The position numbers were made by a program, and so were the translations under genes. The notes under the pieces are model-generated. The model had not been told where the DNA came from. It did no database searches and worked only from the letters and a program-made list of their open reading frames with translations. A stretch of DNA of 40,091 bases from a virus: positions 1-40,091 of the IMG/VR virus record IMGVR_UViG_3300044712_002474, one strand, 5' to 3'. Positions 7,678 through 11,318 of the stretch are shown here, piece by piece (the first letter of the stretch is position 1; each line of letters opens with the position of its first letter).

Positions 7678-7693
7678 CGTATTAGTTAGCAAC
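7673..7693 (+). other. Degenerate recombination-site remnant at left edge of cassette array
   Basis: AATAAC (overlapping the stop codon of the preceding gene) and GTTAGCAAC at 7685-7693 resemble the R'' and R' boxes of an attC site, but no folding arms lie between them. It could be a deleted attC or a simple insertion point. It marks where the AT-rich cassette genes begin. Confidence 0.3.
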
Positions 7694-7712
7694 TTAATTA
7701 ATTTTACAATCA

Positions 7713-8453
7713 ATGTCAAAACAAAACGGAAATATGTACGATTGGATTACTCATACTGCTAATCCTTTGGCTGGTGAATGTATCCATAATTGTAGTTATT
7801 GTTATGTGCAAAAATTGAAACGTGCAAAACCTGTAATTGCAGCAAAATACACCGGAAATCCAACATTAGATTTCAATGGATTAAAGCAAATTTCGGGTAA
7901 AAGCAAATTCATTTTCTTGTGCGATATGACTGATTTATTTGCTGATAACGTTCCTTTTTCAGTTATCAATGAAATTATTGAAAAATGTAAAAGTAAACCT
8001 GAAAACAGGTATCTTTTGCAAACAAAAAATACCAAAAGGTTATTGGAGTTAGCATGGATGATTAACCCATTTTGGACAGGGAACTATTGGAAAGGTGAAT
8101 CAATGGTAAAGCATAATATTTTTTCTGTTTGCACCACCGCCGAAACGAATAGAATTTATCCTAAAATAATGGGAACTGCTTTTACTCCAATGCTTAGACT
8201 AAGTTATCTGCAACGACTTGGACTTGCATGTTTTGACAAATACGTAACAATCGAACCTATCTTGGATTTCGATTTGGAAGAATTTGTGCGAGAAATCAAA
8301 TTTGTTCATCCAATACAAGTAAATATTGGAGCTGATAGTGGCAAAAACAATCTGCCAGAGCCTAAAGCCGAAAAAATCATGAACCTTATCAAAGAACTTG
8401 AACAATTTACAATTGTCAAACAAAAATCTAATTTACAGCGCCTTTTACAATAA
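7713..8453 (+). CDS. DUF5131 (phage Gp37/Gp68-type) radical-SAM-like protein
   Basis: A 246-aa protein starting MSKQNGNMYDWITHTANPLAG, with a C-x3-C-x2-C triad (C23, C27, C30) matching radical SAM iron-sulfur ligands. It also has the family hallmarks FLCDMTDLFAD, LLQTKNTKRL and a late TIEPILDFD segment. DUF5131 proteins are found in many phages and mobile elements; their substrate is unknown, though the fold and cysteines suggest iron-sulfur cluster-dependent chemistry. It is the first gene of the cassette region, followed at once by the first full attC-like site. The left junction of this putative cassette is degenerate, so it may instead be an ordinary phage gene beside the array. Confidence 0.8.
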   Translation: MSKQNGNMYDWITHTANPLAGECIHNCSYCYVQKLKRAKPVIAAKYTGNPTLDFNGLKQISGKSKFIFLCDMTDLFADNVPFSVINEIIEKCKSKPENRYLLQTKNTKRLLELAWMINPFWTGNYWKGESMVKHNIFSVCTTAETNRIYPKIMGTAFTPMLRLSYLQRLGLACFDKYVTIEPILDFDLEEFVREIKFVHPIQVNIGADSGKNNLPEPKAEKIMNLIKELEQFTIVKQKSNLQRLLQ

Positions 8454-8454
8454 T

Positions 8455-8555
8455 AAAAAACGAATACGGGTAGCCGAAGTGGGCTGGTTTTTTGAGCGTT
8501 AGCCCGTGTGTCCGGCAAAAAACCAGACCATTGACGGCTACCCGATGTTAGTGGC
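8455..8555 (+). other. attC-like site 1
   Basis: AAC (8459-8461), then arm CGGGTAGCCG (8467-8476) pairing with CGGCTACCCG (8535-8544), an unpaired interior spacer, then CTGGTTTTTTG (8484-8494) pairing with CAAAAAACCAG (8516-8526), a 21-nt terminal loop, and GTTAGTGGC (8547-8555). Two stems split by an unpaired spacer, bounded by AAC and GTT, is the canonical attC plan. The loop shares GTGTGTC with site 2. Confidence 0.65.
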
Positions 8556-8602
8556 TTAATCATTTTTTTATCTAATTATTATTTATTCTAAATTGCAATA
8601 TT

Positions 8603-9202
8603 ATGAAATTCAAAATATTAAGAGAAAAAGGATTGTGTTTTAAACATATCGTAAACGATAAAAAAAACATAAATTATATTCCTATCAATTTATTACTCTT
8701 GGCAAAAGGTTGTAAATCTAATTTTGAAATTTTAGATTTTTTAGGTTATATTGATGAGGTTCAAGTTGATGAGCAAATTATTGGTAAAAAAACTATTCAT
8801 CATATCATTCGTAAATGGAATGAGATTTTTAATGATGAAGCCGCTGCAATTCAACCTTGTAATATAACAATTGAACGATCAGAATTACTCATCGCAGAGG
8901 GAATGACAATAAGCAAGGAACATTTTGAATTGCTTAATAAATATGGATTTGATAGAGTTTTTGTTCAAAAAAATCATAATAAATTATATGATTGTCTTTT
9001 AAATACATTTAGTTTAAATCCATTTAAAAATCAAAGTGATGCTCTCCATGCGATTGAAAATTTATATACTTTTTATTCCAACGTCCAAAATCTTCCAGAT
9101 GAAACTCTTACGGATATAATGGATTGTTTATTTGAACTTGGTTGGGAACTTGACGATTTAAACGATAAAAAAGAATTTTCAATAATTCCATTACCGTATT
9201 AG
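8603..9202 (+). CDS. Cassette-borne hypothetical protein
   Basis: A 199-aa soluble protein with mixed helix and strand character, no membrane segment and no recognisable catalytic motif. The middle part (from about residue 75) carries TIERSELLIAEGMTISKEHFE, and the C-terminus is acidic (LFELGWELDDLNDKKEF). Base composition is clearly more A/T-rich than the neighbouring phage genes. The gene fills one cassette between attC-like sites 1 and 2, starting after the leader TTGCAATATTATG. Most integron cassettes encode unknown proteins like this; a phage-defence or regulatory role cannot be excluded. Confidence 0.7.
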   Translation: MKFKILREKGLCFKHIVNDKKNINYIPINLLLLAKGCKSNFEILDFLGYIDEVQVDEQIIGKKTIHHIIRKWNEIFNDEAAAIQPCNITIERSELLIAEGMTISKEHFELLNKYGFDRVFVQKNHNKLYDCLLNTFSLNPFKNQSDALHAIENLYTFYSNVQNLPDETLTDIMDCLFELGWELDDLNDKKEFSIIPLPY

Positions 9203-9218
9203 ATTATCGGTGTTCACA

Positions 9219-9316
9219 GCCACTAACGGATACATGTAGCCGATGTGCTTTTTTTTCAGCGCGTTGGCTCTGTGTGTCGGGGAAAAAAAGCATAGTCGGC
9301 TACATGATGTTATGCC
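9219..9316 (+). other. attC-like site 2
   Basis: GCCACTAAC (9219-9227) is the exact complement of the GTTAGTGGC that starts this cassette at 8547. CATGTAGCCGA (9233-9243) pairs with TCGGCTACATG (9296-9306), and TGCTTTTTTT (9246-9255) with AAAAAAAGCA (9283-9292), around a 27-nt loop. GTTATGCC (9309-9316) closes it. The part ATGTAGCCGATGT (9234-9246) is identical, inverted, to bases in the iteron array at 5393-5405. Confidence 0.7.
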
Positions 9317-9364
9317 TTTTTTTCTCTTTATATATTTAGTTTTTACATTATAAATCAATATATT

Positions 9365-9793
9365 ATGAAAAATTATAAATTCTCTGATTTAGTTGCAAGA
9401 TACGGCGAACCAATTCTAAAATTTAAGCCACATATCGAAGGTGCAACACGAGAGCAACTTGATAATGAAAATATTCCGGTTGAATGTGCTATTTTTGAAA
9501 TGAAAAATAATAACCTCGTAAAACCTATTGTTTGGTCTTCTTCTTTCGGTGATAATTGGCAATGCAATTATGGCGAAAGAGTTGTAATCAACGAATTAAT
9601 AAATAAAAATCTAAAATGGAAATATCCAGCAAAAGGCGAATTACCTGATAATGATAATTTAGTTTTTTGCTATTTCGCATTTGAAGTTCCCGAATTATGC
9701 AAATACAATATACACCTTAAAGAATGGTATGATAGAGAATTTAATGTTCTCAAAGTTCCAAAATGCTGGTGCGAATTGCCTGCTTCAAAATAA
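9365..9793 (+). CDS. Cassette-borne hypothetical protein
   Basis: A 142-aa soluble protein, rich in tryptophan and aromatic residues, with scattered cysteines (CAIFEMKN, WQCNYGERVV, CYFAFEVPELC, CWCELPASK) but no clean metal-binding spacing. It is A/T-rich and occupies one cassette by itself between attC-like sites 2 and 3. The stop codon is embedded in the R''-side box AAGGCATAAC, as is often seen when cassette genes run to the edge of their attC. Function unknown. Confidence 0.7.
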   Translation: MKNYKFSDLVARYGEPILKFKPHIEGATREQLDNENIPVECAIFEMKNNNLVKPIVWSSSFGDNWQCNYGERVVINELINKNLKWKYPAKGELPDNDNLVFCYFAFEVPELCKYNIHLKEWYDREFNVLKVPKCWCELPASK

Positions 9794-9861
9794 GGCATAA
9801 CACCAAAGCAGCCGACGGCGGGCTTTTTCTGCCCGCTGCTCGGTCTGCTGACTGTTAGCGG
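9792..9861 (+). other. attC-like site 3
   Basis: AAGGCATAAC (9792-9801) is the 10-bp complement of the junction at 9309. AGCAGCCGA (9807-9815) pairs with TCGG-T-CTGCT (9840-9849), leaving T9844 bulged; CGGCGGGC (9816-9823) pairs with GCCCGCTG (9831-9838). GTTAGCGG (9854-9861) closes it. Extrahelical bases of this kind orient integrase on attC hairpins. The site is shorter and more compact than sites 1 and 2. Confidence 0.65.
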
Positions 9862-9902
9862 TTTAATTATCATTTAGTTGTCAAATTATAAAGTAAAAAA
9901 AA

Positions 9903-10166
9903 ATGCAGATACATAAATTTATAGTAAGCAAAAATCAAGTAAATTACTTTTTCACTAAGAGTCAAAGCAAATGTTTACTTGTAGAATATAATCCAAATGA
10001 GGATTATTTCGGAACAAGCTCAGGAACGAAATTAGAAATAACTATCCATGAGTATAATGCTTTCTTTATAGAAAAATTTGAAAAAATTACCCTTGCTGAT
10101 GTTCCTATGTCTATTCAAAGCGTATTAACTTATCTTAAAATCAATAATAAACATGAAAATCATTGA
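9903..10166 (+). CDS. Small cassette-borne hypothetical protein
   Basis: An 87-aa A/T-rich gene starting MQIHKFIVSKNQVNYFF, with no motif I recognise. It overlaps the next gene by 14 nt, so the two are likely co-translated and may act together; two-gene cassettes are often toxin-antitoxin pairs, but neither protein shows a known toxin or antitoxin motif. It begins about 45 nt after attC-like site 3. Confidence 0.6.
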   Translation: MQIHKFIVSKNQVNYFFTKSQSKCLLVEYNPNEDYFGTSSGTKLEITIHEYNAFFIEKFEKITLADVPMSIQSVLTYLKINNKHENH

Positions 10167-10371
10167 ATTTAAACACGATAATACAGATGATAACTTTATG
10201 ATTTCTAAAAATACTCCGCTATTTTTAGGAAAAAATTATAAAGGTGAATTTGTAGGGAAATTACAACCTGTTTTAGCTTATATGTTTGATGAAGAAGAAA
10301 TTAAAAAAGCTGAGAATTTTTTAAAAGAAAATAATGCTCGGGATATTAAATTTATCCCAGTTCAAAATTAA
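10153..10371 (+). CDS. Small cassette-borne hypothetical protein
   Basis: A 72-aa protein (start MKIIEFKHDNTDDNFMIS) overlapping its upstream partner by 14 nt. It ends with a charged helix (EEEIKKAENFLKENNARD). The stop is followed directly by a truncated attC-like sequence, so it once ended its own cassette. No family recognised; the pairing with the upstream gene is its main clue. Confidence 0.6.
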   Translation: MKIIEFKHDNTDDNFMISKNTPLFLGKNYKGEFVGKLQPVLAYMFDEEEIKKAENFLKENNARDIKFIPVQN

Positions 10372-10372
10372 G

Positions 10373-10392
10373 CAATAACACCAAAGTAGCCG
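10373..10392 (+). other. Truncated attC-like site (left half only)
   Basis: ATAACACCAAAGTAGCCGA matches the left half of site 3 (ATAACACCAAAGCAGCCGA) with one change. The right arm and the GTT box are missing: the sequence goes straight into the leader of the next gene. The site is probably dead, fusing two former cassettes into one 921-bp unit (9855-10775). Confidence 0.55.
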
Positions 10393-10414
10393 AAACCGAT
10401 TTATAATTATAAAA

Positions 10415-10774
10415 ATGTTAACTCTAAATATAGTTAAAGCAATCAATACTGAATCATTTGATATTTTTAGTAAGTTTTTTGAAATTTCTAAGCCAAATGA
10501 ATTTACAGTATTATGTCATTATCGTTTTTTTTATACTTATCCTGCATTTGGAAAAAAATGGATTAATAATGAAAATAATTTTCAATATCATCGTTTTGAA
10601 CCATTTTGCGAAATATGTAAATCTAAACCAGACTATAATCGTTTTGGAATTGGTTCGATTTATTTACTTAACTCTGGAAAAAATATTGTTTTTCGTTGCG
10701 AAAATCATTTATTAGCAGCAAAAAAATTTGGAATTCATTCAAAATCAAAACAACTAACGTTGTTTAACTGCTAA
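10415..10774 (+). CDS. Cassette-borne hypothetical protein with possible zinc site
   Basis: A 119-aa A/T-rich gene. The C-terminal half contains CEICKSKPDYNRFGIG, then FRCENHLL, giving a C-x2-C ... C-x2-H arrangement compatible with a treble-clef or HNH-like zinc site; I see no complete nuclease motif. The tail is basic (KKFGIHSKSKQL). Its stop overlaps GCTAAC, the R'' box complementary to GTTAGC at 9854, so it is the last cassette gene. A zinc-binding nucleic-acid protein is plausible; confidence in any function is low. Confidence 0.6.
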   Translation: MLTLNIVKAINTESFDIFSKFFEISKPNEFTVLCHYRFFYTYPAFGKKWINNENNFQYHRFEPFCEICKSKPDYNRFGIGSIYLLNSGKNIVFRCENHLLAAKKFGIHSKSKQLTLFNC

Positions 10775-10775
10775 C
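10770..10775 (+). other. R''-like box closing the cassette array
   Basis: GCTAAC is complementary to GTTAGC at 9854-9859, where this cassette begins. No hairpin arms follow; the sequence passes directly into the leader of the gene at 10791. It appears to be the truncated right edge of the array. Six bases alone would be weak evidence, but it sits exactly where the pattern predicts. Confidence 0.4.
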
Positions 10776-10790
10776 GAACATAAAAAACCA

Positions 10791-10985
10791 ATGCAAACCG
10801 AAACACAAATAAAATGTCGAATTTCTGATTGGGGGTGTGCGTTTCATGCCTGTATGAGCAATCATTGCCAAATGCGGTATGTGTTGCAGTATGGCAATTG
10901 CGAATATACCCCTAAATGCGGGAAAACAAAAAAAAGAACAAGTAAGTATTTACACTTGCTGTCCTTTGCGCCACCTCCAAAATAA
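10791..10985 (+). CDS. Small cysteine-rich protein
   Basis: A 64-aa protein with seven cysteines and three histidines in its first 53 residues (CRISDWGC, HACMSNHC, GNCEYTPKC), ending in a basic stretch. The spacing suggests a small zinc-binding fold, or a disulfide-rich one if exported, but there is no signal peptide. It lies between the cassette array and the head operon and ends 15 nt before the next start. Family not recognised. Confidence 0.6.
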   Translation: MQTETQIKCRISDWGCAFHACMSNHCQMRYVLQYGNCEYTPKCGKTKKRTSKYLHLLSFAPPPK

Positions 10986-11000
10986 TAGAATTTTGTGAGT

Positions 11001-11318
11001 ATGAAAACAATAGCAGGTACAGAGGCAATCCGATTGATGCGCGAAGTGAGTAAGTTACCCGATGGACATTTTACGCTGTCGCACCTTACTTACGACCGCC
11101 GCAAAAGGCAATCGGACGGATGGCGACAAGTGAAACGTTGCCGGCTTAGACCTTCGTTACCCAATGAAGTTTTCGCAACCGACAGCGATTTGTATTTGCC
11201 CTATCACGATATTACGGCAGATGCGCCCCGCTTATGTTTCAAGTTGCTTATCAGGTTTGTAGGCTTCGCGCCAAATTATGAATTAATGAAAATAAACTGG
11301 TTCACAGATGAAGAATAA
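11001..11318 (+). CDS. Small head-operon protein preceding portal
   Basis: A 105-aa protein. I start at the ATG at 11001 rather than the GTG at 10995. It is basic (DRRKRQSDGWRQVKRCRLRP) with a hydrophobic C-terminal part. Genes of this size and composition sit just before the portal gene in other Bacteroidota phages, but I know no assigned role. It overlaps the portal start by 11 nt, so expression is coupled to the head genes; base composition returns here to the less A/T-rich phage norm. Confidence 0.65.
   Translation: MKTIAGTEAIRLMREVSKLPDGHFTLSHLTYDRRKRQSDGWRQVKRCRLRPSLPNEVFATDSDLYLPYHDITADAPRLCFKLLIRFVGFAPNYELMKINWFTDEE

Follow-up and report, generated by a model that had tools for sequence, protein, structure and literature searches.

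A phage-borne, integrase-less and probably antisense array of attC-like gene cassettes in a tailed Bacteroidota phage

Introduction

Cassette arrays in phages are already known, and one of them lies in a Bacteroidota phage. Qi et al. (2023) reported 17 phage CALINs, including that of Polaribacter phage P12002L, and showed that five of the six phage attC sites tested recombine with IntI1 (PMC9892861). In the case of P12002L_attC2, recombination with IntI1 proceeded via the bottom strand, and the top strand yielded no recombinants (PMC9892861). Another group of phages of interest here, the Muminvirus phages of Flavobacterium, was isolated in a study that makes no mention of integrons or cassettes; in that study, plating efficiency was linked to whether one methyltransferase is present, which does not imply that this gene belongs to a cassette (PMC7077304). 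In the literature that we searched, whose coverage is incomplete, we found no description of antisense arrays or of cassette turnover at G/TT in Bacteroidota phages.

An earlier note, made from the letters of a virus record, had proposed that the record carries integron-type gene cassettes, and had regarded the carriage of cassettes by a tailed phage as unusual, a novelty that the 17 CALINs already reported take away. Here, we have analyzed the whole record, a stretch of 40,091 bases that will be called the window. Our analysis indicates that it probably contains a CALIN-type array, i.e., attC cassettes in a record that lacks an integrase, carried by a tailed phage of Bacteroidota; circles would have been inserted at G/TT and the genes would run against the attC polarity.

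Results

The phage and the limits of the array

The virus record was placed among the tailed Bacteroidota phages through its portal protein, which is 25-36% identical to the portals of Porphyromonas, Flavobacterium, Cellulophaga, and Bacteroides phages, some of them Duneviridae. An alignment search yielded 80 relatives, the nearest with a portal 43% identical, and a portal search using the single protein found nothing. In the collections searched, no relative is close enough to reveal the empty site, and there are no convincing cassettes among the portal relatives. Accessory genes near the portal are frequent among these relatives, and the primase is the only gene upstream of position 10995 that has a match, in one relative. 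For the small protein encoded at 10995-11318, directly upstream of the portal, 79 of 85 relatives have a homologue in the corresponding position, and no family was found.

Three attC-like hairpins, together with five small genes on the plus strand, occupy the region bounded by a DUF5131 gene (7713-8453) and by a gene encoding a 64-aa protein (10791-10985) (Table 1). These cassette genes are almost without relatives: none was found for the 142-aa protein, the 199-aa protein has matches at 22-23% only, and the defence and NCBIfam libraries gave weak matches only. Neither a TIGR02249 nor a PF00589 match, and hence no integron integrase, was found anywhere in the record, which may be a fragment, and the Rfam search of the window was negative. 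This region is best read, as the earlier note had suggested, as integron-type cassettes that lack an integrase.

The array most likely spans positions 8461-10775 and leaves the DUF5131 gene outside, so that the left limit previously placed at 7685 has to be moved. The DUF5131 gene was considered as a first cassette and rejected, since GTTAGCAAC lacks a cognate box before site 1. The empty site, with the DUF5131 gene on its left and the 64-aa gene (10791) on its right, would have read ...taataaaaaa/cgaacataaaaaacc... The DUF5131 gene itself, which is radical-SAM-like, resembles the PADLOC candidates PDC-M41B and PDC-M30B and adjoins a YopX-like gene.

Table 1. Features of the cassette region in the window, followed by the arrays of other phages used for comparison.
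Feature	Position	Strand	Remark
Putative inserted cassette array, most likely extent	8461..10775	polarity minus, genes plus	from hairpinless right-end box and hybrid box at site 1
attC-like site 1	8455..8553	-	outer box AAAAAAC on the plus strand, without cognate and probably half derived from the phage target; inner box GTTAGTG at 8547-8553
Cognate box GTTAGTGGCT	8547..8556		pairs with 9218-9227, 10 bp
Cassette gene, 199 aa	8603..9202	+	no known family
Cognate box AGCCACTAAC, first cassette	9218..9227		partner of 8547-8556
attC-like site 2	9221..9315	-	
Cognate box GTTATGCCTT	9309..9318		pairs with 9792-9801, 10 bp
Cassette gene, 142 aa	9365..9793	+	no relatives found
Cognate box AAGGCATAAC, second cassette	9792..9801		partner of 9309-9318
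attC-like site 3	9795..9860		polarity ambiguous
Box GTTAGCGGTTTAATT	9854..9868		pairs with 10761-10775: 6 bp exact, 11/15 bases with mismatches
Cassette gene, 87 aa	9903..10166	+	no family
Cassette gene, 72 aa	10153..10371	+	no family
Degenerate half-site	10372..10390		like left half of site 3
Cassette gene, 119 aa	10415..10774	+	no family
Hairpinless end box of array	10761..10775		
Polaribacter methyltransferase cassette	L042 31311-32277; L190 29807-30773		P12002L and P12002S, respectively
Muminvirus arrays of cognate-boxed attC-like cassettes	L191 2038-7351; L192 2060-9370; also L193, L194		several with DNA methyltransferases

Hairpins and cognate boxes

The three attC-like folds seen earlier between the small genes were borne out. 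When folded as DNA, sites 1-3 reach -18 to -29 kcal/mol, with z-scores of -3.8 to -7.2, and none of the dinucleotide shuffles folds as well as the three sites. The sites agree, loosely, with the attC box consensus, i.e., R'' (RYYYAAC) and R' (GTTRRRY) around an imperfect hairpin. The loose points are the outer box of site 1, which we read as derived from the target, and GTTAGTG, which is off consensus but present in IntI arrays. As to the degenerate folds that had also been described, one half-site is real; it lies inside the third cassette (10372-10390), and its box, which reads GTTATTGC on the minus strand, lacks a cognate partner.

In every cassette, the two end boxes complement each other, over 10 bases in cassette 1, 10 in cassette 2, and 11 of 15 in cassette 3. 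For the first cassette, the earlier note had given 9 bp (8547 with 9219); the complementarity stands, but its length is 10 bp. The 10-bp pair of the second cassette (9309 with 9792) had been correctly described, and so had the 6-bp pair of the third one (9854 with 10770), which becomes longer when mismatches are allowed.

The complementarity of the boxes by itself is weak evidence, and it is the combination with the adjoining hairpins that counts. Of the 39,570 GTT/AAC pairs that the window contains, 4 attain 10 bp; since box matches of this length alone arise by chance, we base our argument on the two elements jointly, box and hairpin. A scan that asked for two hairpins with cognate boxes was run on 1.3 Mb from the 85 portal relatives and on shuffles. 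It recovers the window array, the 85 relatives give one weak 7-bp match only, and the shuffled relatives gave nothing. The reasoning from boxes that had first been put forward for this region was correct in its logic, since 10-12 bp is the commonest length in IntI-linked arrays (see below).

Comparison with IntI-linked arrays

Reference arrays were read at integron-integrase loci (TIGR02249 above cut-off) in genomes G001-G395, from the phylum of a Cytophagales genome. Such an integrase is present in 105 of the 395 sampled genomes. Among neighbouring pairs of the IntI-linked arrays, 42/69 have cognate boxes matching over 10-12 bp, the commonest length. On the gene-sense strand, the R''-side spacer is shorter than the R'-side spacer in 135/142 sites, the 5' side carries the excess of extrahelical bases in 127 of 142, and the base preceding GTTA is C in 131/134 sites. 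With respect to attC, 94 genes are sense, 9 are antisense, and 2 are ambiguous. These chromosomal Bacteroidota integrons (L043-L062, L148-L187) are like the window in their boxes, mostly of 10-12 bp, in the existence of a spacer asymmetry, and in the sizes of the cassettes, and unlike it in having intI and mostly sense genes. One of the IntI-linked arrays, L167 (genome G006), contains an unusual attC-like pair with TAGCCGAC, of ambiguous polarity, and an antisense gene encoding 264 aa.

In the window, the spacer and bulge asymmetry of the gene-sense strand is the reverse of that of the IntI arrays in the three sites. The neighbouring bases of sites 1 and 2 strongly favour the minus strand, and the C before GTTA fits in these two sites on the minus strand only, whereas the bases next to site 3 favour the plus strand. 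In addition, the first element of an inserted array should be a hairpinless box, and the last one a hairpin in which target DNA makes up half of the outer box. There is no hairpin at the right end, GCTAAC (10770-10775), and the outer box of site 1, AAAAAAC, is an odd one. The ends of the array fit the minus polarity, since the hairpinless box is found at 10775 and the probable half-target outer box at site 1. Based on both the anatomy of the sites and the ends of the array, the attC polarity is most likely minus for sites 1 and 2, that is, opposite to the genes, and site 3 is ambiguous. The earlier note had overlooked this probable reversal.

Covariance models and motif searches

Covariance models were built from chromosomal and phage arrays, R1 being an attC model made from chromosomal arrays only. 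We had expected R1 and R2 to recover the window sites; this expectation failed, as no significant score was obtained on either strand and the best one was 11.0 bits (E 4.8). Models of attC that score no sites had been named in advance as a result that would speak against integron cassettes, and the models built here go part of the way in that direction. Since R1 and R2 give no significant score, the window sites are divergent, candidate attC sites. On the filifjonk phage, R1 detected seven sites on the strand opposite to the genes, the best with E 0.0016 and most of them weak.

An exact motif scan with TAACACCAAAGYAGCCGA returned one viral and ten genome matches, none of them with attC structure, a number close to that expected by chance. 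Structured patterns gave no matches, and an exact-pattern search for the TAGCCGA/TCGGCTA stem revealed no source array, either chromosomal or viral.

Cassette turnover in other Bacteroidota phages

A methyltransferase cassette, 98.6% identical between the two, is located at different places in P12002L and P12002S, both Polaribacter phages. The common stretch starts at GTTGTATG and finishes at GTTA in both phages, with GTT breaks on both sides. Like the putative array of the window, the P12002L CALIN belongs to a tailed phage of Bacteroidota and consists of attC cassettes that lack an integrase, and our analysis found in it cognate boxes and antisense genes as well. The window differs from P12002L in that it comes from a different, uncultivated phage, its cassettes carry orphan genes and not methyltransferases, and its sites escape R1 and R2.

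The Muminvirus comparison comprised four Flavobacterium phages (L191-L194), reported as lytic, and cognate-boxed arrays were mapped in two of them. The Muminvirus arrays (mymlan6-1, filifjonk9-1, mumin6-1, and tooticki6-1) resemble the window in their attC-like sites, their cognate boxes, which are 8-10 bp long, and the lack of an annotated integrase, and their genes are antisense, as those of the window probably are. Unlike the window, the two genomes scanned have 6-9 cognate-boxed cassettes, many with DNA methyltransferases, and other stem sequences; the sites keep little of the two-bulge pattern. A further difference is that the gain and loss of cassettes is visible between sister phages, which are near-identical in their common blocks, yet differ by whole cassettes. 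The ends of the shared blocks are at GTT in 20 of 27 cases. Three of the other seven coincide with the module border that precedes the array, and most of the remaining ones lie a few bases inside the start of a common cassette.

Thus, whole-cassette turnover at G/TT, with antisense genes, is observed in two other groups of Bacteroidota phages, and the breaks of gene gains in these phages fall at GTT, the position proposed in the earlier note for the relatives of the window phage. The 14 distinct cassettes (10 from Muminvirus, 4 from Polaribacter) are all antisense to attC. Compared with the 94:9 ratio of sense to antisense in the IntI arrays, this gives a Fisher p of ~2e-12, for cassettes that are not fully independent and that come from two phage groups besides the window.

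Discussion

We propose that each unit of the array was formerly circular, its complementary end boxes closing the circle, and that these circles would have entered by site-specific recombination at the G/TT of a single strand in folded form. This recombination was probably catalysed by a host integron integrase acting in trans during infection, which is plausible because TIGR02249 was found in more than a hundred of the sampled genomes. The first insertion would have taken place at a non-attC G/TT between two phage genes, and later cassettes would have joined at attC. Genes running along the phage operon would have been retained and, more speculatively, transcription of this operon may expose the non-template strand, which would be the foldable strand in this arrangement.

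The same cassettes might have the usual polarity, with a plus-strand attC after each gene and an array extending, as in the earlier note, from upstream of site 1 past site 3, whose ends would have decayed. Genes and hairpins do appear in the normal order of sense cassettes, and site 3 favours the plus strand not only by its neighbouring bases but also by model R2 (11.0 bits on plus vs 5.8 bits on minus). However, we consider this arrangement unlikely, since the spacer and bulge asymmetry would be reversed at every site, sites 1 and 2 would have the wrong neighbouring bases, the first hairpin would lack a cognate box on its left, and a hairpinless box would remain at the right end.

Other explanations dispense with integrons. 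Hairpin-bounded units could be moved by another recombinase, e.g., a Xer-like or a phage tyrosine recombinase, using the folded strand and the matching ends, in agreement with a record without integrase, with the failure of the attC models on the window sites, and with the faint two-bulge pattern of the Muminvirus sites. Nevertheless, the boxes, their lengths, and the G/TT breakpoints are those of integron arrays, and an attC site from the same kind of phage is active with IntI1 (PMC9892861), rendering this alternative quite improbable. It is very improbable that we are dealing with ordinary accessory genes separated by terminators or other hairpins, whose flanks are complementary by chance. 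Such genes are common near the portal in the relatives and box matches of 10 bp do occur alone by chance, but two consecutive hairpin-bounded units with 10-bp cognate boxes are absent from the shuffles of the relatives, and the T run of site 2 is found only after the box, about 10 bases away from the stem.

The reading that we prefer for the window is a phage-borne, integrase-less, and probably antisense array of integron-type cassettes. We further suggest, tentatively and with some doubt, that Bacteroidota phages may own integron-type arrays of a particular kind, whose genes almost all run against attC, and that co-occurring lytic phages may exchange whole cassettes, often with DNA methyltransferases, at G/TT; the window would be a divergent member of this kind with orphan genes. 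In Muminvirus, several methyltransferases that differ between sister phages sit in cassettes. The constant antisense orientation is unexpected in view of the 94:9 predominance of sense genes in IntI-linked arrays. Phages would then be, beyond mere carriers, exchange grounds for integron cassettes.
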